From assembly GCA_009885285.1 (NCBI GenBank), contig VFKX01000005.1, forward strand, positions 1 through 50,282: a stretch of 50,282 bases of DNA. Reading direction: 5' to 3'. This document shows, piece by piece, positions 1 to 13,010 of this stretch. Within the stretch, counting starts at the first letter, position 1; every line of letters begins with the position of its first letter. The position numbers were made by a program, and so were the translations under genes. The notes beneath the pieces were generated by a model. It was not told the origin of the DNA. It did no database searches and saw nothing but the letters and a program-made list of their open reading frames with translations. The DNA comes from Candidatus Falkowiibacteriota bacterium (GTDB lineage Bacteria > Patescibacteriota > Patescibacteriia > Patescibacteriales > UBA12465).

Positions 1-212
1 ACAACGAGAGCTTGAGGTGAACCTTGAAATCCTTGAGCTTCATACCAGCGAGCGATACTGAAGTGATCGGGATTGGAGATGATGCGGACGGCGATGGCGT
101 CGGAGTCAGTTAAAGAACCGGAAGTCTGAGCCTGAGAATAATTAGCATCCGCTAAAAATACAATTAGTAACAACACCGCCCCAATGGTTAATATTCTCCT
201 ATTCTTAATCAT
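1..212 (-). CDS. Partial secreted protein (5' end only; continues past window start), MIKNRRILTIGAVLLLIVFLADANYSQAQTSGSLTDSDAIAVRIISNPDHFSIARWYEAQGFQGSPQALVV
   Basis: Open frame from ATG at 212 to window edge without a stop, N-terminal signal-like hydrophobic segment; same strand and 21 bp downstream of the 234-6020 gene. Confidence 0.75.
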   Translation of the reverse strand, partial: MIKNRRILTIGAVLLLIVFLADANYSQAQTSGSLTDSDAIAVRIISNPDHFSIARWYEAQGFQGSPQALV

Positions 213-233: not shown

Positions 234-3200
234 CTAGTTAATCGGGGCGCATTGACCGTTATTACAAAATATCTCTTGTGACTTCGCACTTTCGTTCTTA
301 TAGCTGTCAAGCGCACTAACGGCAAAATAATCATTCTTAAATTCAAATTGCGAAGAATTAAAACTTAAAGTAGCAGCAGCTGATAAAGAATCGAAAGATT
401 CACCATAAGCGCCTGATTTAATACCATGATATAAACGATACGACGTGGCCCCATCAATAACATTCCATTTGAATATGGCTGTGGAACTAGAAATAATCAA
501 GCCAAAACTACCTGGAGTGGCTGGAGGTGTCTTATCAGTCGGAGTAATTGTCTTTTCTACAGACAAAGGACTCTCAACCTTATTCGTTGAAATAACACTG
601 AGCTTAAAGACATAGGGGACATTATTGGTCAGGCCGGTTAAGGTGGTGCTACATGAATATGTATTACCTGATAAAGTACAAGCGCCTAAGCCCACCGCCT
701 TCTCGAGCATCGCTCCCTTGCCTGACTTTAAGTAATAAACTTTATAAGAACCGACTTGACTAGCTGAGGATTGCCAGTTTACTCTCACTGCCCCACCGGT
801 TTGCAAATCAGTAACTGAACTAATGTCGCCACCGGAAATACTGGCTTCGCGGAAGAAATATGATTCTTTAAGCACACTCCAAATACATAAGCCATCGGCC
901 GATCCGTCATTATTTTGATCAGGACCGCAAGCCGAACCGATGTTCGAACAGGTGTTCTTATCAGTACTGCAAACTAAGTTAGATCCTTGCCCGCGAATAA
1001 CAGCCCGGTTAATGATAGCTGGTAAATCATCTAGCGTTCCGGATGTTCCTGCATCGCGGCAATAATAGAACTTATAATTATAATCTGAGCAACTACCACC
1101 AATTGAACCGGTACAATTGTCGGCCCAAGGAGACCAAAGACCGTTAGCAGCTACTGGCGGCCAGGTATTTTTACAAGAGAAAACATAAATATTAGCGGCA
1201 TGGTTATAGTTATTTCCTCCGGAATAGACATTGCAACAATTATTTGAGCAAATTTCATCAGTACAAGAACAAGTACCACTGGCGCAAATACCGCCACTAA
1301 AATTACTCATATTAACTGTGGCCTTGACTTGGGCTTCCGCGTCGGTTGCTCCTGATGTCGCAGACACAAAAACTTTATTTCTAGCTAAACCGGTGACGGG
1401 TAAGATTGAGGCGACAGCTGGATTAGGATTCTGGAAAGTCCAGGTCCAGAAATAGCCAGTAGTTGGTTGAATTGGCTGTCCGCCCAAGCTATAGGCCTGA
1501 GCAGTGAAGACCTTATCTTTATCAACTACAGTATCAAAAGTCTTATCACTCACATCTGCATCTTTTTCATCCAGGCCGTTTTCTGTAGTGTTAAACAAAT
1601 ATGAGGACGGAGAAACTTTGACATCATTAATGGCGCAAATTCCGGCCATCGGGCCCTGATCAGACAAAGTTGAGAATTTAATAATCTGGGAATTCGGATA
1701 ATTCTTGCCATTCAAGCTAATATTCTCTCCGGGAATATATGAGCTGGTATCAACATTTAAATAACCCAATCCGTTAAATCCTATTCCAGAATAACTCAGC
1801 ACGCCCGACTGGCTGTTTAAAGCGGCATCGCCCAAAACAACAAAATAATAGTTAGAAGAGGCATTTAAAAGTTTTCGAGGCGCAAAGGAAGCAGAAGAAG
1901 TTTCTCCGGTCGTCTCTCCGCTGGCAGTTCCCGGGACAGCACAATATAGATTATTGGAATTTGGTGTATCGGCTAAGGCCTGGTCAGAGAATTTCATAGC
2001 CAAGCTTTTCCATTCGTACTTAATGGCAGTCAATATTTTGGTAATTAAACCTTTACTCTGCAGAGCTAATAAGTGATCAATAGAATCGGCCTCAGCCACA
2101 AAAGTGCCGGACGGGCAAACTCCGTTACCATAGACTCTCTCTTCAAGCAACATGATATTGTTTTGTAAGCTAGAGATATCCATCTTCTGATTAAAGTTTA
2201 CCTGGATAACTGAATTACGACAGACCTCATCTTCCATGTGCGCCGGTGAAGTGCTGACGATGGCTGGCCGAGCTTCGCAGCAAGTGTCTTGTCCACAGCC
2301 GACAGTCTCCGGTGAGCCACATTCATTATCGCTTGAGCAGCCGCAACATAGTCCGCGGCTAGCGCCTGAACAATTACCCTTATCAGCTAAACATTGGAGT
2401 TTCGGGTTCAGGGCTGTGCAAGCATCCGTAGTTGCGCCAGGCTGACAGCAGCAAGTACCGCAGTCAGTATCGAGCGTGCCTAATTGTCCGCTCGGAGAGA
2501 AACAGCCAAATCCGGCAAAAGTACATTTGTCGGTCGCGCAAGTTGAAGAAGCACTACCAGCGCAAGTTAAACCAGGTCCAGTTGGAGGATTTGCACAATT
2601 ATCAACACAGGTAGTTAGACTATCAAAAGTACCGAGTCTCACAGGTGTTGAACTAGCACAAATATTTTCATTGGTCAGAGGAATGGCTTCGCAATTATAG
2701 TAAGCGCAATAACCATTATCAGCTCCGCCGGTAATCGCGGTTCCTAAAGTACAAGAGTCATCGCCTGGAGCTGGTGTCTTATTAGAATTAAAACAGCAAC
2801 GAGAATTAGCACTGCAAGCGGTAAAATCTAAACCGGGACATGGATCAGAATTAACACAATCTGCAGTACAGGCCCCAATGCTCGGATAATTTCCAATTTT
2901 TACCGGTGTGCTCGATGCACATTGTGTCGGGTTAGTCGCCGAACAATCATAATAGGCGCAATATCCGAAAGAAGGATTGCCGGGAATAGAAGAAATAAGA
3001 GTACCATCGCCGCCGCGACAAATATCATCGGCTGAGGTAGCAGTCTTTTTGGAATCTAAACAACAAGCATTGCTATGATCAGCACACTCAGATCCGGTGA
3101 GGTTAGAGCAATCAGTACAAACACCGCTCGGAAAAGCAGTATTGCTAGTATCGCAGAATTGACCGCCATGGTCAGCGCAATTACAAGCAGCATCATGCTC

Positions 3201-6020
3201 AGCTGCTGTCGTTCCCACAGAAGCACAACCCCCGCAACTACCCAACGTAGCACCGGTAGTCTTTCCAGTATCTGACCCACACGTTCCCTGGCAGGTCAAA
3301 GGCGCACAGCAGTCACGAGCATCTTGGCCTATAGTACAACAACAATCGCATTTAGGCTGATCAGGGACAATGCATTTATCAGGCTCTCCGACATTTGGAT
3401 TATCAGAGCAAGTTGCTCCGGCAGCACAAATCTTGGCGGAAACACAGTGTCCGACTTCAGAAATATTCTGGCAAGTGAAATCAGTCGAACAAACAGAACA
3501 ATCGGAAGTTAAGCTCACACAGCGATTACCAGTCGACCGGGTCCAGCCATTTGGGCAAGAGGTCGGTATAGTGATTTCCCAATGTTTGTCTTTATTGCAA
3601 GTTTGCGGAGTAGTGAAATTTTTCCCACCCAAGGTATAAGATAATGAAGTCGGCAGGTCGCAAGTCGCGCCGGCGCCATTCTTAACGCATTTATCTAAAG
3701 AGGCGTCATAGGTGCAATTATTCAAACCCAGTTCACCGCAACCACTGACAGTGCTGCAGGAATAATCGCAAGCGCCGACAATCTTCGATCCGCCTCCGGC
3801 ATAAGGAGAACAAGTTCCCGGAACATTCGGACAAGTCGCGCCGGTCTGGCAGGATCCGAAATAAGAGGCCAGGCCGGAACAGCTATAAGCATATGGATTT
3901 GGCGTGGTTGTTGAAAAGCCCGTATTAAAACTCCATTCAAAAACTGAAGTCGGGATATTGATAAAACAATTATCCAGGGTGTCAACACAGCGCCCCTTGC
4001 CGTAAGTATTCTGCGGGCAGCAGACCTTTGTGCCACAATCAGAATTGGAACTACATTCTCCGATAGAAAAGTTTACTTCATTGCCCCATTTGCTATTCTT
4101 AATCACCCGAGCCGGACCAGTAATTGAGCCTACTGGGACTTTGGCCTGAATGGTGTCTGCCCGGCCATCTTTAGCAATCGTGCCGGTGGCGGATTTCTGA
4201 TTATTAAAGTGCACAAGGCCGACATTATTCAATTGACCAAAATATTCACCCCAGAAAGTTACCGGCGTAGCGATAGGGCCAAATTCAGGTTCAATCTTAC
4301 AAATACTGCTGCTCAAATCTAAATTTGCATCAGAATGAAAAGTATTCGGGTTCAATTTCTGAGTATCAATCGTAGTAGTTCCCCGAACAATCTTGATTGT
4401 TTGATATCCATCAACCAATCCGGCCGGCACTTTAACGACAATCTGATTATCCTTCCAGACTGAATTGAGGCACATGTCTGGAAAATCATAAGCTGCTTCA
4501 GTGTTACCAAAAAATACTTGAGAGGAACCGCGAGCACCGCCAAAACCATTACCTCGAATCGTCACGTATTGTCCGGCGTTCCCAGCGGTCGGCAGGAATG
4601 AAGAAATAAAAGGACCCTCTCCCGGCTCAGGCTCTTTTGTAAAACTTAAAAAATTACTTTTCTCTGCATGTCCATTGATATTATTCTGCACAAAACTGCC
4701 GGACTGTCCAGATCTGATATTTGGCGTAGTAGATGTGCCAGTTAAGCCGACCGGGTTACTGAAACTGGAGCTGAGCGCCTGAACATTACTCTGATAATTA
4801 CCAAAATAGGCGCTACCGGAAAATAAATTTATACCCTGATACCCAACTTGTGAACTCAATGCTCCGGTATTCGGACTCAAATAGCATAAACCCGGGCGGG
4901 AAATATTATTAACCTGAAAATCTGCAATATCCGGCCCATAAGTATTACCGGTCGTGTCCTCAAGATTGTCAGCATTCACAACTTTAATAGATCCGACACT
5001 AGCGCCGCTCGGCACCGCAATGACAATTTCAGTATCTCTCCAAGTATTGGCGCAGGCAGAATTAAGTTCGACTGGATTGCGGCCATCGCGGGGATTACCA
5101 TTGCCTTCAAATACTACCTTACTGGTCGTAGCCGAATACGAACCGAAATTCTTACCAATGATTGTTATAAAATTACCGACAGCGCCGTTCGGTGTAGCAA
5201 TATTGCATGTAGTGGCACAATCACTGTCGACTTTACAGGTCTGATTCGGATTATTGTCACAGAAACCGCCGTTCGGGCTGATAGCAGTAATGACTGGCGG
5301 ACCAAAACAAGTACAGGACGTCGGGTTACAGGTTAAATATTCTGAACAATGGTTATTATCGGCATCGCAAGTGGCGTTAGTTAAATCGCTATCGCAAGGA
5401 TCACCCAGATTCCCTCTCGGCTTACAGCCACAATCGCCAGCATCGCAATAATCGCTCGGAGCGCAGATTTGAGCCGCTGCCTGACAGCCAGGATTTATAT
5501 TGGAGTCGCAACTAGTCGGAGCATTGCCGCCTCCGCCGCCGCTACAATTAGAACCGACACAAGATCCATATGATCCCCCGCTACAAACCATGGCACCGCC
5601 GCAACCACAAGACATGCTCTCGCCATCGAGACAGCCGCTAGACGAACCGTTAGTCGCACCGCTTAAACGGGAAATAATAAAAGTCGCAATTGCCCATGAC
5701 GATAGCACAATTACTAAACCAATTACCGCATTCTTGAGTAAACTTTTGGCTTTAGTCAGTTTTTCTTCATCGCCTCCGGAACTCATCCATAAAAAACCTG
5801 CATAAATAATCAAGCCGACGGCAATAACTCCTAGAAAACCTAAAGCGATATTAATAATCCGGCCGACAATTGTGCGCGGATCAGTAGTGGCAAGAGCCCC
5901 ATTCAAACCGGTGCCGACTTCATTAGTGCCAAATCCTTGAGCCAGCACAAAATTTGAAACCAGAAGTCCGGCTGAAATTAGGAAAAAGATTAATAGATTT
6001 TTTTTAGAGATTCTATTCAC
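234..6020 (-). CDS. Giant (1928 aa) cysteine-rich surface protein: T4SS-pilin (TrbC/VirB2)-like N-terminal double-TM module + IPT/TIG-like domains + Cys-rich modules + Big_5/Ig-like + FnIII-like region
   Basis: N-term DPRTIVGRIINIALGFLGVIAVGLIIYAGFLWMSSGGDEEKL..AVIGLVIVLSSWAIATFIIS; repeated 'PxITxISPNGG..ITIIGKNFG' TIG-like motifs; dozens of Cys; 'RPAIVSTSPAHMEDEVCRNSVIQVNFNQKMD' Big_5-like. Confidence 0.85.
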   Translation of the reverse strand: MNRISKKNLLIFFLISAGLLVSNFVLAQGFGTNEVGTGLNGALATTDPRTIVGRIINIALGFLGVIAVGLIIYAGFLWMSSGGDEEKLTKAKSLLKNAVIGLVIVLSSWAIATFIISRLSGATNGSSSGCLDGESMSCGCGGAMVCSGGSYGSCVGSNCSGGGGGNAPTSCDSNINPGCQAAAQICAPSDYCDAGDCGCKPRGNLGDPCDSDLTNATCDADNNHCSEYLTCNPTSCTCFGPPVITAISPNGGFCDNNPNQTCKVDSDCATTCNIATPNGAVGNFITIIGKNFGSYSATTSKVVFEGNGNPRDGRNPVELNSACANTWRDTEIVIAVPSGASVGSIKVVNADNLEDTTGNTYGPDIADFQVNNISRPGLCYLSPNTGALSSQVGYQGINLFSGSAYFGNYQSNVQALSSSFSNPVGLTGTSTTPNIRSGQSGSFVQNNINGHAEKSNFLSFTKEPEPGEGPFISSFLPTAGNAGQYVTIRGNGFGGARGSSQVFFGNTEAAYDFPDMCLNSVWKDNQIVVKVPAGLVDGYQTIKIVRGTTTIDTQKLNPNTFHSDANLDLSSSICKIEPEFGPIATPVTFWGEYFGQLNNVGLVHFNNQKSATGTIAKDGRADTIQAKVPVGSITGPARVIKNSKWGNEVNFSIGECSSNSDCGTKVCCPQNTYGKGRCVDTLDNCFINIPTSVFEWSFNTGFSTTTPNPYAYSCSGLASYFGSCQTGATCPNVPGTCSPYAGGGSKIVGACDYSCSTVSGCGELGLNNCTYDASLDKCVKNGAGATCDLPTSLSYTLGGKNFTTPQTCNKDKHWEITIPTSCPNGWTRSTGNRCVSLTSDCSVCSTDFTCQNISEVGHCVSAKICAAGATCSDNPNVGEPDKCIVPDQPKCDCCCTIGQDARDCCAPLTCQGTCGSDTGKTTGATLGSCGGCASVGTTAAEHDAACNCADHGGQFCDTSNTAFPSGVCTDCSNLTGSECADHSNACCLDSKKTATSADDICRGGDGTLISSIPGNPSFGYCAYYDCSATNPTQCASSTPVKIGNYPSIGACTADCVNSDPCPGLDFTACSANSRCCFNSNKTPAPGDDSCTLGTAITGGADNGYCAYYNCEAIPLTNENICASSTPVRLGTFDSLTTCVDNCANPPTGPGLTCAGSASSTCATDKCTFAGFGCFSPSGQLGTLDTDCGTCCCQPGATTDACTALNPKLQCLADKGNCSGASRGLCCGCSSDNECGSPETVGCGQDTCCEARPAIVSTSPAHMEDEVCRNSVIQVNFNQKMDISSLQNNIMLLEERVYGNGVCPSGTFVAEADSIDHLLALQSKGLITKILTAIKYEWKSLAMKFSDQALADTPNSNNLYCAVPGTASGETTGETSSASFAPRKLLNASSNYYFVVLGDAALNSQSGVLSYSGIGFNGLGYLNVDTSSYIPGENISLNGKNYPNSQIIKFSTLSDQGPMAGICAINDVKVSPSSYLFNTTENGLDEKDADVSDKTFDTVVDKDKVFTAQAYSLGGQPIQPTTGYFWTWTFQNPNPAVASILPVTGLARNKVFVSATSGATDAEAQVKATVNMSNFSGGICASGTCSCTDEICSNNCCNVYSGGNNYNHAANIYVFSCKNTWPPVAANGLWSPWADNCTGSIGGSCSDYNYKFYYCRDAGTSGTLDDLPAIINRAVIRGQGSNLVCSTDKNTCSNIGSACGPDQNNDGSADGLCIWSVLKESYFFREASISGGDISSVTDLQTGGAVRVNWQSSASQVGSYKVYYLKSGKGAMLEKAVGLGACTLSGNTYSCSTTLTGLTNNVPYVFKLSVISTNKVESPLSVEKTITPTDKTPPATPGSFGLIISSSTAIFKWNVIDGATSYRLYHGIKSGAYGESFDSLSAAATLSFNSSQFEFKNDYFAVSALDSYKNESAKSQEIFCNNGQCAPIN
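2590..3080 (-). repeat. Two tandem ~85-aa-spaced cysteine modules inside the giant protein
   Basis: CCLDSKKTATSADDIC...GYCAYYDCSATNPTQCASSTPVKIGNYPSIGACTADC versus CCFNSNKTPAPGDDSC...GYCAYYNCEAIPLTNENICASSTPVRLGTFDSLTTCVDNC. Confidence 0.85.
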
Positions 6021-6067
6021 AAATTTAATATACGCGAATTAATTCTGCCGCTGCGACAGATTGAAAG

Positions 6068-8767
6068 CTACTGGCAATTACCATCTGCCCCCAAGGCGCT
6101 ACTCGGAGAACCAAAACAACATGACGGCTGAGCCTCAGTGGCAATACAGCCCGGACCAATGCTCGGCTTATAGCAATTTTGGTAAATATCTTTGACTCCA
6201 GAACCGACTTGCGCCCGGAAAGTCAGAGATTCTGCAAAAGGCGAATGATTAATCTTGGTAATTGTCAGGTCAGGCTCCCCATCCAAAGGAGACACGTCTT
6301 TATTTTCACTGGTAATCCAATATCCTAAGGCGCTAGGCGAAGATGCTCGCAGATTTATCAGCTTATGTTCAAAAGTTGATGTCCCATTATTAACGATGAC
6401 GCTGCCGGTGTCCAGAGTGCTATTAAGCATTAAGCCGTTAAAGCTGATAGTGATAGGGTCGGCTAAATTTATACCGCTCTGTCCCTGAATCGGAGAAATT
6501 GACGTTATCTGCGGCGGTGTCAGCATGATCGTGTCATTAATATAGAAAGACCATTTGTATTTATCCTTCTTATTAACATTAACTGTTGTGCTGTAATTAT
6601 CATCATAAAAGTCCAGAGGCCCCTCCGCATAAGTATTTCTGTCGCCATCAAAAGAATTGGTGGCCGCATCCACAATACCGTCAAGACTGCTCAAATTCGC
6701 CAAAGGATAATTATGCCCCTGCGCATCCTGGCAAGTCTGGTATCCTAAAGAAGTCGGAGCGCAAATGTTATAAGGAGCGGAGGCGGCGCAATCTGAATTA
6801 GCTGTACAAGTTTTTAAATTTGCCGAAACCAACTCAATAGCTAAATGACTGGACGCCGGTAAGCAATAAATTTCCTCGCCGCATCCATTAACACCACATT
6901 TAACGTCCGAGATAAATTCTAAAGTCTTATAGCCATTACTGACTTTAAATTTTCCGCCCAAGAAACTACCGACACAGACATTATTCTGGCAGCTATATGA
7001 ACGACAATCAGAATTTCTAGTGCAGCCACCTCCAGCTAAAGTGCTCGAGGCATTAGCGTTTACCACCTTGATAAAATTCGCTACTTCGCTAGCGGTTCCG
7101 GAAACAGTGACTGGGTTAATGGCTTCATTAAAATTAATCTGGATAGCGGAATTCATCGGCCGGTCTTGCTTATCGTTTGATTGGCTTAATTCTTGTCTGT
7201 CCTGGCCGCCGGATAAAGGACGAACCAATAAGGCAGTATTATTGGAAGTGGTTACAGCTACGGTGTTTCCTGAAGCCCCGGCTACTTTTGCGCTTAAGTT
7301 TACAGTTGTGCCACTCAGTCCGACATTGATAGCCTCATGGCCACTCAACTTTGCCTGAATATTACTGGCCTGTGTGCCGGCATTACAAATTGCCGGTACG
7401 GCGATATTGTTATTCGCTCCAGTCCTGGCGAATGTGTAAACTGTATCATTAATAGTCAAAGTGTCAGCCAGTCTTTCCGGGGAAATCGAGATTGTCCAAA
7501 GACTGCCGGCCGGATGACTGGCAGCTGTCAAGGTTAAATAATTTGCGAATACCGCCTCGCCGCTCGCATTAAAATCAGCGGCACCGAGCAGGTTATTGGC
7601 TGCATCGAATAACTGAGCTTTGTCCGGAGCATCAGCCGGCACAGCTACTTTCAAGCTCGATAATGCGCCATGATAATTTAAAACGACGGTAGCACCTGCC
7701 GGGTTAATGCTATTAACACTGGCGGCCGAATAAGTGTTCGGACAAGAACTGATAAGGATGGCGCCAGTAGCAGCGGCCGCTGGAGTTACAACCTTAAAAA
7801 GATCTTTCTGATTGTCGGGCAATGGAAAAATTCCTGCAGGTGCAACTACCGGCGGCGTCAAATCAAAATTTGTATTGACGGTAAACGACCACTGAGCGAA
7901 GTCGGCCGAGCAGCTCCGGAACATTGAAGTGCCATCCAATTTTTCAAAATCATTAGTCAGCTTAATAGTGTATCCAGTATTAGCGTTGGTTGACCCTAAT
8001 GGTGTCAGCGGCATCAGGACTAAAGTCTTGTTTACTCCCGTCACACTAACCAGAACATTAGTTATATTAGCGTTAGTACTAGGACAAGCCGTACTCGTAC
8101 AAGCGTCACCCAGCTCAGTCTTATATATTCTAATAGCCAACGGATTTATTTTATTACAATCGGCTGCGTCGCAAGCGCAAGCCGAACCGGCAGTATTAAC
8201 ACAGACCGAATCTAATTTCATCTCTTCCTTAAAAGTTACCATGATGGAGGTATTGCGCGGTACATCAGTCTGAGCGTCTTCCGGATAAGTGCCTGCTATT
8301 GTACAGGCACCAATTGCTCCGGCGCCGGCATTCAAAGAATTTCCGCCAGGACCATTTAAATCAGTTCCTACATTTGCGCCAGTAGCGGCCATTAAGCGCG
8401 ACAGAACGAAAGTTGTAATACCCCAGGCAGACAAAATTATAGCCAAGCCTATAAGAGCGTTAGTTAAAATCTTTTTGGCACTAGAAATTTTTTCTTCTTC
8501 GCCGCCAGAAGTGGTCCACAGGAAACCGGCATACATAATCAGGCCGACGGCAATCACTCCTAAGAAACCTAAGGCCCACTGAATAATGCGACCAATAATA
8601 ATTCGGGGGTCAGTAGAACTCAAGGCGCCGCCCAGACCATTGTTAACCTGATTAATTCCGAAGTCTTGCGCAGACGCAAAACTGGCACCAAGAATGAAAT
8701 AACTTGCCGCCGCGATAACGATAATTAGGCTTAATGATAAGCCTCTATGTTTTATATATTTAGCCAT
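6068..8767 (-). CDS. 899-aa paralogous surface protein: T4SS-pilin-like N-terminal module + Big_5/SbsA-like Ig domains, Cys-rich end
   Basis: N-term FGINQVNNGLGGALSSTDPRIIIGRIIQWALGFLGVIAVGLIMYAGFLWTTSGGEEEKI nearly matches the 1928-aa protein; 'YPEDAQTDVPRNTSIMVTFKEEMK' and 'NSAIQINFNEAINPV' Big_5-like motifs. Confidence 0.85.
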   Translation of the reverse strand: MAKYIKHRGLSLSLIIVIAAASYFILGASFASAQDFGINQVNNGLGGALSSTDPRIIIGRIIQWALGFLGVIAVGLIMYAGFLWTTSGGEEEKISSAKKILTNALIGLAIILSAWGITTFVLSRLMAATGANVGTDLNGPGGNSLNAGAGAIGACTIAGTYPEDAQTDVPRNTSIMVTFKEEMKLDSVCVNTAGSACACDAADCNKINPLAIRIYKTELGDACTSTACPSTNANITNVLVSVTGVNKTLVLMPLTPLGSTNANTGYTIKLTNDFEKLDGTSMFRSCSADFAQWSFTVNTNFDLTPPVVAPAGIFPLPDNQKDLFKVVTPAAAATGAILISSCPNTYSAASVNSINPAGATVVLNYHGALSSLKVAVPADAPDKAQLFDAANNLLGAADFNASGEAVFANYLTLTAASHPAGSLWTISISPERLADTLTINDTVYTFARTGANNNIAVPAICNAGTQASNIQAKLSGHEAINVGLSGTTVNLSAKVAGASGNTVAVTTSNNTALLVRPLSGGQDRQELSQSNDKQDRPMNSAIQINFNEAINPVTVSGTASEVANFIKVVNANASSTLAGGGCTRNSDCRSYSCQNNVCVGSFLGGKFKVSNGYKTLEFISDVKCGVNGCGEEIYCLPASSHLAIELVSANLKTCTANSDCAASAPYNICAPTSLGYQTCQDAQGHNYPLANLSSLDGIVDAATNSFDGDRNTYAEGPLDFYDDNYSTTVNVNKKDKYKWSFYINDTIMLTPPQITSISPIQGQSGINLADPITISFNGLMLNSTLDTGSVIVNNGTSTFEHKLINLRASSPSALGYWITSENKDVSPLDGEPDLTITKINHSPFAESLTFRAQVGSGVKDIYQNCYKPSIGPGCIATEAQPSCCFGSPSSALGADGNCQ

Positions 8768-10830: not shown

Positions 10831-11073
10831 CTAGGAACGCATTGTGCTTTCCGGTAATTTGCCAGTTTTACGTAAAAACTCATTTTTCTTACGCAAATCC
10901 AACCCGATTAATGCGTGTTTTTTCTGCTTTTGCTTGGTTTTTTTAGGTTCCAAGTGCTGTTTTGAACGCGCCTTTTCTAAGCGCTTGCTATTTTTCAAGC
11001 CTTTCTTGAATTTTCTCAAGAAACTTTCAAAACTTTCACCTGGCTTTCTCTTAAAGTCCGCCATAAAGTCCAC
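10831..11073 (-). CDS. rpsU: 30S ribosomal protein bS21-like
   Basis: FKRKPGESFESFLRKFKKGLKNSKRLEKARSKQHLEPKK..RKKNEFLRKTGKL, basic, size and pattern of bS21. Confidence 0.75.
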   Translation of the reverse strand: MDFMADFKRKPGESFESFLRKFKKGLKNSKRLEKARSKQHLEPKKTKQKQKKHALIGLDLRKKNEFLRKTGKLPESTMRS

Positions 11074-12433
11074 CTTCCTTTCTATTATTTAATCTTTTCT
11101 CGATTAATTTATCTTTTTTTAATAATCTTTCTTTGATTTTCTTGTAAACGACAGTTTCTTGGGCACCTGAATCCATGTCCCGCATCAAGATTGTTCCATC
11201 CATTATTTCTTTTTTACCTAGGATTAAACAAGTTTTTGCTTGCATGGCAGTGGCCTCCTCAAGCTGTATCTTTAAGCTATCTGAGGCAAAAGACTGGCGT
11301 ACATTAAATCCGGCACCACGCAAATCATCGAATAATTGCAAAGATTTGAGCTTAGCCTGGTCGCCCAACTGGGCAATAAACACTATATCTTCTTCCTGGC
11401 TTTTAATCAAGAGCTGGCGATCCTTAACGCGGGCCAGCGTTCTTTCAACACCGATAGCCAAACCAATGGCCGGAGTTGAGACTCCACCCAGATTTTCCAC
11501 CAAGGAATCGTATCGTCCACCGCCACCGAGAGCAATCTTACCTAAAAGCGAACCATCGTCATTTATCGGCCAGAACTCAAAAACGGTATCATTGTAATAA
11601 GTCAGGCCGCGCACGAGGTACGGGCTAAAATTATAACTGATATTAAGCTCATCTAAGAATTCTAGGGTCTTCGTGAAATGCTCGCGACTGCTTTCTGATA
11701 AATAATCAGCAATCTGAGGCGCTTCTTCGCGAAGTTTAATGCAGTCATCGTCCTTACAATCAAGCAAGCTCAGAGGATTCTTCAATAAATTATTTTTGCA
11801 TTGATTACAGAGCTTGGACCGGCGCCCTCTTTCTTTATAGAAAGCACCGAGCTTATTACTATATTCTTTATGACATTCAGCTGTACCAATGCTGTTTATT
11901 TGAACTTGAGTCTTTATTCCTAACTCGGTAAAAAAATTATGAGCCACTGTAATCAGCAAAGCTTCTGCTAACGGCTTATCCTCTCCAATGATCTCTAAGC
12001 TCATCTGAGTTGATTCGCGATAATGTCCAGTTTGTAATTTTTCATGACGGAAAATCGGACCAAGAGAAAATAGCCGCGATGGCAAGCCTGACTCACCCAT
12101 ATTATTTTCCAGATAGGCCCTAATAATACCCTGAGTGATCTCCGGACGCAGGACCATTTTTTCATTCTTTTCGCCCTCTACAGGATAAAATTCGCGTTCA
12201 GCCCCATGACGAGTTGACTTCTTATATAAGTCATAGCTCTCCAAAATCGGAGTCTTAATCGGCGTAAAGCTATAGATCTTAGCAAAATCATTAGCTTTAT
12301 TAACGATAAAGTCAAAATAGCGACATTCCGCCCCAACCCAATCCTTCATCCCTAAAAGGCGACTCGGAGTCTTTTCACTTCTACGCACAGCGGGCTTGAC
12401 GGGCTCCAACTCTCCTTTTTTTCTTCTAGGCAT
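11051..12433 (-). CDS. hisS: Histidyl-tRNA synthetase
   Basis: Class II HisRS motifs (ALGGGGRYDSLVENLGG, GLAIGVERTL, RPEITQGIIRAYLENN); start MPRRKKG at 12433 preferred over ORF start 12475, which would overlap lepB. Confidence 0.95.
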   Translation of the reverse strand: MPRRKKGELEPVKPAVRRSEKTPSRLLGMKDWVGAECRYFDFIVNKANDFAKIYSFTPIKTPILESYDLYKKSTRHGAEREFYPVEGEKNEKMVLRPEITQGIIRAYLENNMGESGLPSRLFSLGPIFRHEKLQTGHYRESTQMSLEIIGEDKPLAEALLITVAHNFFTELGIKTQVQINSIGTAECHKEYSNKLGAFYKERGRRSKLCNQCKNNLLKNPLSLLDCKDDDCIKLREEAPQIADYLSESSREHFTKTLEFLDELNISYNFSPYLVRGLTYYNDTVFEFWPINDDGSLLGKIALGGGGRYDSLVENLGGVSTPAIGLAIGVERTLARVKDRQLLIKSQEEDIVFIAQLGDQAKLKSLQLFDDLRGAGFNVRQSFASDSLKIQLEEATAMQAKTCLILGKKEIMDGTILMRDMDSGAQETVVYKKIKERLLKKDKLIEKRLNNRKEGGLYGGL

Positions 12434-12440
12434 ATATTCT

Positions 12441-13010
12441 TTATTTATTATATTGATTCCAATAATTCTTATCAAAAACAGTGACGTCCTTCAGCGGCCA
12501 ACCTCGAAACAAAACTTTACCGGTCACAAAACTTTTATTTACGGGGCCAAAACTGCGAGAGTCTTTTGAAGCAGCCCGATTATCACCAAGCACGAAATAC
12601 TCATCCGGCCCGACAGCCACCTTTAATTCACTGGAATCGAAAGTAATTAACTCACCCGCCAGATACTTCTCATTAATAGCTAGGCCATCAGGATTCTCTG
12701 AATTAAAAATCAGCACTTTACCATCCTTAATCTGCACTTCTTCGCCAGGCAAACCGATAACTCGCTTAATGAAATACTCTTGGGGATTGCGCGGATAACG
12801 GAAAACAATAACCTGGCCGCGTTCCGGTTGAGCAAATCGATAACTGAGCTCATCGATGATTAAGTATTCATGATCATGGAAATTCGGTTCCATTGAAGCC
12901 CCTTTAACATAGAAGGGTTGAATCAGAAAGTATCGGACCGGCAAGATAATAGCCAAGGAAATAGCAATTACCTTGGTGATTTCCCAAACGAACAAAAAAA
13001 ACTTCTTCAT
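12441..13010 (-). CDS. lepB: Signal peptidase I
   Basis: VKGASMEPNFHDHEYLIIDE, RGQVIVFRYP, YFIKRVIGLPGE, YFVLGDNRAASKDSRSFGPV. Confidence 0.95.
   Translation of the reverse strand: MKKFFLFVWEITKVIAISLAIILPVRYFLIQPFYVKGASMEPNFHDHEYLIIDELSYRFAQPERGQVIVFRYPRNPQEYFIKRVIGLPGEEVQIKDGKVLIFNSENPDGLAINEKYLAGELITFDSSELKVAVGPDEYFVLGDNRAASKDSRSFGPVNKSFVTGKVLFRGWPLKDVTVFDKNYWNQYNK

Follow-up and report, generated by a model that had tools for sequence, protein, structure and literature searches.

A conserved tandem pair of giant, pilin-headed candidate surface proteins in Patescibacteria and its same-genome match to a short pilin

Patescibacteria are ultrasmall, probably host-attached bacteria. The closest described counterparts of the proteins analyzed here are pilins and adhesins of T4SSs and giant proteins of Patescibacterium danicum and its relatives. 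Known VirB2-type pilins are processed by signal peptidase and pack into a helical filament (PMC9905601). In Patescibacteria, VirB4 together with PrgI marks a T4SS of the Gram-positive type (PMC12102498), arrays of 2–11 small pilins are known (PMC12102498, PMC12857230, PMC10633639), and the T4SS with its pilin array proved essential in the one species in which this was tested (PMC12857230, PMC10633639). A PF18895-based survey of 3035 genomes of these bacteria describes arrays of small pilins and reports no PrgB-like adhesins; since the Gram-positive-type class lacks VirB2, co-option from other T4SSs was considered there (PMC12102498). Among Paceibacteria attached to methanogens, T4SS pilins and Ig-fold proteins are found among the highly expressed genes of unknown function (PMC10936435), which fits the theme of the present work, but in another class. 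In Patescibacterium danicum and its relatives, members of the class ABY1, proteins of over 4000 aa were proposed to be adhesins, and one is annotated as a fibronectin type III domain protein; that study reports no full-length homologues of these giants and, in its available part, mentions no pilin module (PMC11809585). Here we describe a tandem gene pair, A and B, in which a pilin module is fused to a long ectodomain. This architecture is real, widely conserved and, judging by open-access full texts, apparently undescribed; the available parts of three papers on patescibacterial pilins make no mention of giant pilin fusions (PMC12102498, PMC12857230, PMC10633639).

The window, 50,282 nucleotides long, is the whole of contig C109 of a Candidatus Falkowiibacteriota genome (1.43 Mb in 118 contigs). 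Its relevant features are the following.

3–212, minus strand: gene C, N-terminus of a secreted protein without a pilin module, cut by the contig end; it clusters with 800–1500-aa orthologues directly downstream of B in relatives, one of which (L071) has a He_PIG Ig domain.
234–6020, minus strand: gene B, giant pilin-headed candidate surface protein of 1928 aa (open reading frame; Pfam domains; in 33 other genomes an orthologue immediately follows A).
5940–6020, minus strand: gene B signal peptide, residues 1–27, with an AxA-type site before Q28 (read by eye from the sequence; helix 3–27 in the model).
5676–5876, minus strand: gene B T4SS_pilin module, residues 49–115 (PF18895, 40.0 bits in the whole protein and 45 bits for the module alone; NF045849, 40.5 bits; helices 48–79 and 85–124).
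4335–4613, minus strand: gene B, best of three TIG domains, residues 470–562 (PF01833, 48 bits).
2124–2273, minus strand: gene B Big_5 Ig-like domain, residues 1250–1299 (PF13205, 30.1 bits).
576–815, minus strand: gene B fibronectin type III domain, residues 1736–1815 (PF00041, 27.6 bits).
6068–8767, minus strand: gene A, pilin-headed candidate surface protein of 899 aa (open reading frame; Pfam; alignment of 18 orthologues).
8669–8767, minus strand: gene A signal peptide, residues 1–33, with an AxA-type site before Q34 (read by eye from the sequence).
8405–8599, minus strand: gene A T4SS_pilin module, residues 57–121 (PF18895, 41.6 bits).
7880–8305, minus strand: gene A, first Big_5 Ig-like domain, residues 155–296 (PF13205, 55.6 bits over three stretches; a CopC-like beta sandwich among the structure matches).
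6110–6205, minus strand: gene A conserved C-terminal motif GSGVKDIYQNC...SCCFG, residues 855–886 (invariant columns in 18 orthologues).
11051–12475, minus strand: histidyl-tRNA synthetase, conserved flank of the locus (Pfam; synteny).
12441–13010, minus strand: signal peptidase I gene, conserved neighbor of the locus (PF10502, 151 bits); it adjoins hisS beside A–B in most class-level loci.

Both large reading frames and the close spacing of the same-strand cluster, with gaps of 21 bp (213–233) and 47 bp (6021–6067), had been pointed out in an earlier note on this DNA and were reproduced here. The signal peptidase I gene may be functionally tied to the A–B locus. The remaining genes of the contig are mostly housekeeping (RelA/SpoT, HisRS, signal peptidase I, QueA, RuvB, gyrase A and others), and no plasmid DNA similar to the window was found.

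The N-termini of A and B had been likened to T4SS pilins of the TrbC/VirB2 type. This resemblance holds at the level of PF18895, whose gathering score (26.6 bits) is exceeded by both proteins and which is matched by all 19 members of the module alignment, and it extends, for B, to one NCBIfam model of a conjugation-associated pilin, NF045849 (cut-off 40 bits; B 40.5, P1, a short pilin of the same genome described below, 39.1, and A 29.0). By contrast, the classical TrbC/VirB2 profile, PF04956, stays below its cut-off of 27.9 bits (21.1 for the B module alone, 15 in the whole protein; best member E 3.9e-5). A and B share the domain family, signal peptide and two helices with the PF18895 pilins of the patescibacterial VirB2-like arrays (PMC12102498, PMC12857230, PMC10633639). 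Classical VirB2, TrbC and TraA are likewise two-helix pilins with a signal peptide, and their profile match to A/B is full-length but weak; unlike A and B, they are about 100 aa long, lie in T4SS operons and carry no ectodomain. NF045849 covers the same module, but as an 80-position model of a small protein without an ectodomain. Judging by its name, Mbov_0395, we take this family to come from mycoplasma conjugative elements; the score of B, nearly matched by P1, hints that Gram-positive-type conjugation may also employ a pilin of this kind. With 899 and 1928 aa, A and B fall outside the size range of small stand-alone pilins (about 125–150 aa), in which P1 of the same genome lies.

The similarity between the two proteins themselves was overstated in the earlier note. 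The modules, called almost identical, share 56% of their residues, and the signal peptides show no conservation. After the AxA site come an amphipathic stretch and a long helix, which a short Gly/Glu/Lys-rich loop separates from a second helix; the AF2 model agrees with this layout. For the B module, modeling of the N-terminus, which the note had proposed, yields helices 3–27, 32–42, 48–79 and 85–124 (pLDDT 74.6), so that a signal peptide helix and two predicted helices of the module (48–79, 85–124) stand beside the AxA sites seen in the sequence. Orientation in the membrane beyond these predicted helices is putative. When its profile was compared with the individual sequences of TrwL and TraA, the module gave no match, and neither did the negative controls; since the accepted VirB2 pilins TrwL and TraM (pKM101) match each other only at E 0.24, such a comparison cannot rule out homology. 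A profile search of solved structures with the module found no pilin, and fold searches with the helical hairpin returned generic helix hairpins with no VirB2-type pilus among the matches listed, which proves nothing.

Beyond the module, the long TIG/Ig-like/Cys-rich ectodomains noted before are borne out by Pfam: B carries TIG (three stretches), Big_5 and fn3, and A carries Big_5 (three stretches). Gene B encodes 125 cysteines after residue 130, amounting to 6.5% Cys over the whole protein; VKOR was not found in the genome of the window, and any disulphides in this Cys-rich part are hypothetical. In A, prediction confidence is highest at residues ~330–520 (pLDDT about 90), where structure matches include an FlgL-like stretch with a CopC-like one nearby (probability 1.00 but E 0.002–0.02). 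The expectation that the ectodomains vary freely is contradicted by the orthologues of A, which are 38–74% identical to the protein of the window and share an invariant C-terminal stretch, VGSGVKDIYQNC...SCCFG. Ectodomains of B differ across the class and include LamG, CBM_4_9, TIG, Big_5, TSP3 and dockerin-like stretches. No C-terminal LPxTG sorting signal is present at the ends of A (...LGADGNCQ) or B (...NGQCAPIN). In this respect, the two proteins differ from PrgB (aggregation substance), a long surface adhesin for a Gram-positive-type T4SS, whose role resembles the one proposed here for A and B. PrgB is held by a C-terminal LPxTG motif (PMC12857230), and A and B instead have the N-terminal pilin module. 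More generally, conjugative Gram-positive T4SSs use LPxTG adhesins where the ectodomains of A and B would act.

The same A–B tandem pair is present in 33 further genomes, which excludes chance as its origin. The fusion of the module to long ectodomains is real and widespread, and its topology fits extracytoplasmic display. Within the family of the window, A and B are adjacent in nearly every readable locus; the gene order is A, B, C, a ~100-aa protein and one or two TSP3-repeat membrane proteins, and the locus is divergent from the RelA/SpoT gene and near those for HisRS and signal peptidase I. Orthologues of gene A are found in contigs named Falkowbacteria, Uhrbacteria, Magasanikbacteria and Buchananbacteria, the closest (74% identical) being from a Falkowbacteria MAG; by its named relatives, the genome of the window belongs to Candidatus Falkowbacteria. 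In the class as a whole, the locus is usually flanked by lepB-hisS-rpsU-yqeY on one side and ybeY-dgkA-ftsA on the other. There, gene A encodes 550–1045 aa and intact frames of gene B free of N encode 2262 to 4675 aa; overall, B ranges from about 1500 to at least 4675 aa. Of 144 genomes of the class, 63 have a gene A match (E<=1e-40); in a sample of 44 nearly complete genomes of the class, one per genus, at least 30 contain a module-headed reading frame of more than 1000 aa (frames in the fetched loci were checked for runs of N). A frame of 14,266 aa in one genome (G124, C1:501271-544029), a candidate for a record-size B, was rejected because it is mostly a run of N. In two class-level loci ftsZ is located further on, and loci L177–L196 hold a stable place in the cell-division neighborhood. 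One to three proteins with a single membrane helix and calcium-type TSP3 repeats always follow B or C (for example, L178:16285-18170).

The genome of the window has 12 PF18895 matches above the cut-off, among them six short pilins that form a compact array on contig C16. The first gene of the array, P1 (~127 aa; 126 aa in this genome), is the closest short relative of A and B: on a profile built from the A/B modules plus P1 of this same genome, B scores 180, A 177 and P1 164 bits, and the next short pilin of the genome 118. In the other family genomes that were read, P1 also heads a six-pilin array, scoring 105–165 bits versus 53–110 bits for the other array pilins; one genome (G420) holds two copies of P1. 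A high-scoring short pilin is present at the class level too, and P1 as a family-wide entity is established for the family of the window. P1 ends just past the second helix, and A and B thus resemble P1 with an added ectodomain. No T4SS genes were found beside the P1 arrays. The essential T4SS locus of Southlakia epibionticum contains six pilins, the same number as the Falkowbacteria array (PMC12102498, PMC12857230, PMC10633639).

The module tree is poorly resolved, with A and B modules interleaving; thus, pairwise identities were compared using permutations instead. If the modules descended merely from old duplications, A would be expected to resemble the P1 of its own genome no more than the P1 of any other. 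Within the family of the window (22 genomes), to which all these statistics apply, the same-genome excess of identity is +0.084 for A–B, +0.051 for A–P1 and +0.068 for B–P1, values reached in 0 of 5000 permutations, and that of A or B with P2–P6 is at most +0.014. When only one genome per genus is retained (n=7), the mature module still yields exact p values of 0.0002 (A–P1), 0.0004 (B–P1) and 0.0002 (A–B), and the control pilins P2 and P6 are not significant. The P2–P6 controls argue against base composition as the cause. The excess of A and B with P1 peaks in mature residues 28–47 (+0.110 and +0.119) and is also found in both helices; the signal peptide shows no such excess (−0.006 and +0.018, not significant). 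Weak couplings are also found among P2–P6 (for example, P4–P5, +0.026), as expected if the array pilins pack together.

Gene conversion has to be weighed here. In one locus (L068:631-10228), about 300 nt of DNA, most of the module, show 100% identity between A and B, with sharp divergence afterwards, and exact A–B matches of 64, 44 and 34 nt are found in other genomes. The tract in L068 represents recent conversion or duplication, or else an assembly artefact, the contig containing 100 N. The A–B coupling is thus partly gene conversion. If the whole A/B/P1 match were a by-product of ancient, recurrent conversion with no functional meaning, A and B would have separate roles. We find this highly improbable: P1 shows no long exact DNA matches to A or B beyond cross-genome levels, and its coupling spares the signal peptide, a region that conversion would normally be expected to include; this argues against conversion as the cause. 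Ancient conversion could nevertheless account for part of the A/B–P1 coupling.

The same data bear on the possibility that a pilin module acquired in the distant past now acts only as a signal peptide and two-helix anchor in the cytoplasmic membrane, making A and B single long adhesins that form no polymer. A two-helix topology with the C-terminal ectodomain outside would work for such proteins, neither A nor B has a visible C-terminal anchor, the module is present in other architectures as well (for example, proteins of 374 and 394 aa in the same genome), and A and B are unlinked to T4SS genes. However, a plain anchor has no reason to match one short pilin, in its mature part only and genome by genome, and we consider it unlikely. 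The match of the mature module to P1, in the absence of conversion tracts, argues for co-assembly rather than mere membrane anchoring. The earlier note had placed a membrane anchor and a polymerisable base on an equal footing; the same-genome coupling with P1 tips the balance toward the latter.

Thus, A and B are, in our judgment, probably giant accessory pilins that associate with P1 and carry adhesive ectodomains; their match to this one short pilin suggests incorporation into a pilus-like structure for sticking to other cells. In the proposed sequence of events, SecYEG would export A and B and signal peptidase I would trim them, as for VirB2-type pilins; once in the membrane, the two-helix module would have its short charged loop on the inner and its two ends on the outer side; in its mature form it would pack, either within the membrane or in a filament, against the stand-alone P1 of its own genome; a chromosomal Gram-positive-type T4SS (VirB4/PrgI) would run the assembly of A, B and P1; and the Ig/TIG/Cys-rich C-terminal part would be displayed outside as an adhesin. 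A C-terminal extension of a VirB2-type family member is expected on the outside. The coupling supports, at the level of sequence, the steps from the module to assembly; filament formation, dependence on a T4SS, surface location, adhesion and cell–cell attachment are inferred further steps. A VirB4-type ATPase and PrgI are encoded in the genome, on contig C36 and hence outside the window, and A and B are distant both from T4SS genes and from the P1 array; no T4SS gene was matched around the A–B loci. Against a filament, subunits of 900–4700 aa would be sterically hard to fit in a thin pilus, except as rare subunits at its base or tip. To our knowledge, if they are part of a filament, A and B would be far larger than any known VirB2-family pilin. 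A more specific picture, a decorated T4SS pilus made of the small major pilin P1 and two giant pilins that bear 0.8 to over 4 thousand adhesin residues on its surface or tip, is conceivable, and we offer it tentatively.

Alternatively, A and B could be parts of the T4SS machine that line or cap the channel at the cell surface, forming a giant VirB5/VirB6-type platform whose ectodomains span the wall and S-layer. The universal presence of A and B within the family fits such a structural role, as does the high conservation of the ectodomain of A with its C-terminal motif, and VirB6 proteins with large hydrophilic domains are known (PMC12857230). Nevertheless, we regard this placement as improbable: the ectodomains are strings of Ig, TIG, fn3, LamG and carbohydrate-binding domains, which, like the length range of B, are more usual for surface contact, and, unlike VirB6, A and B have only two membrane helices.

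Other combinations of pilin-like modules were also encountered. In five families of another class, a conserved operon (L197–L210; for example, L199:2890-12364) contains a second form of pilin–ectodomain fusion: two ~330-aa proteins, each with three T4SS_pilin-like two-helix modules, are followed by a pilin-headed PKD-repeat protein (typically 1494–1673 aa where complete) and a ~740-aa PKD membrane protein. The genome of the window encodes two proteins with a pilin-like two-helix stretch in mid-protein (L021:1024-2208 and L020:6199-7322), one of which has a weak VanY-like carboxypeptidase match at its end (18.5 bits, cut-off 25; motif HGSGRAIDL...EPWHW), the other being Cys-rich. The NCBIfam model of the CPR pilus protein PamR (NF058578) has no match in the genome of the window and elsewhere matches only the PKD repeats of other proteins.

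The A–B architecture may be shared by some giant proteins of the class for which homologues had seemed to be missing (PMC11809585); their membership in the A–B locus is a candidate assignment. Co-assembly with a defined short pilin is a strong lead. If the decorated pilus proves true, it would be unlike known conjugative pili and would provide the host-contact factor that the T4SS of Patescibacteria has so far lacked. For the questions of host attachment in Patescibacteria and of the purpose of their T4SS, the conserved A–B pair offers a concrete, testable candidate.
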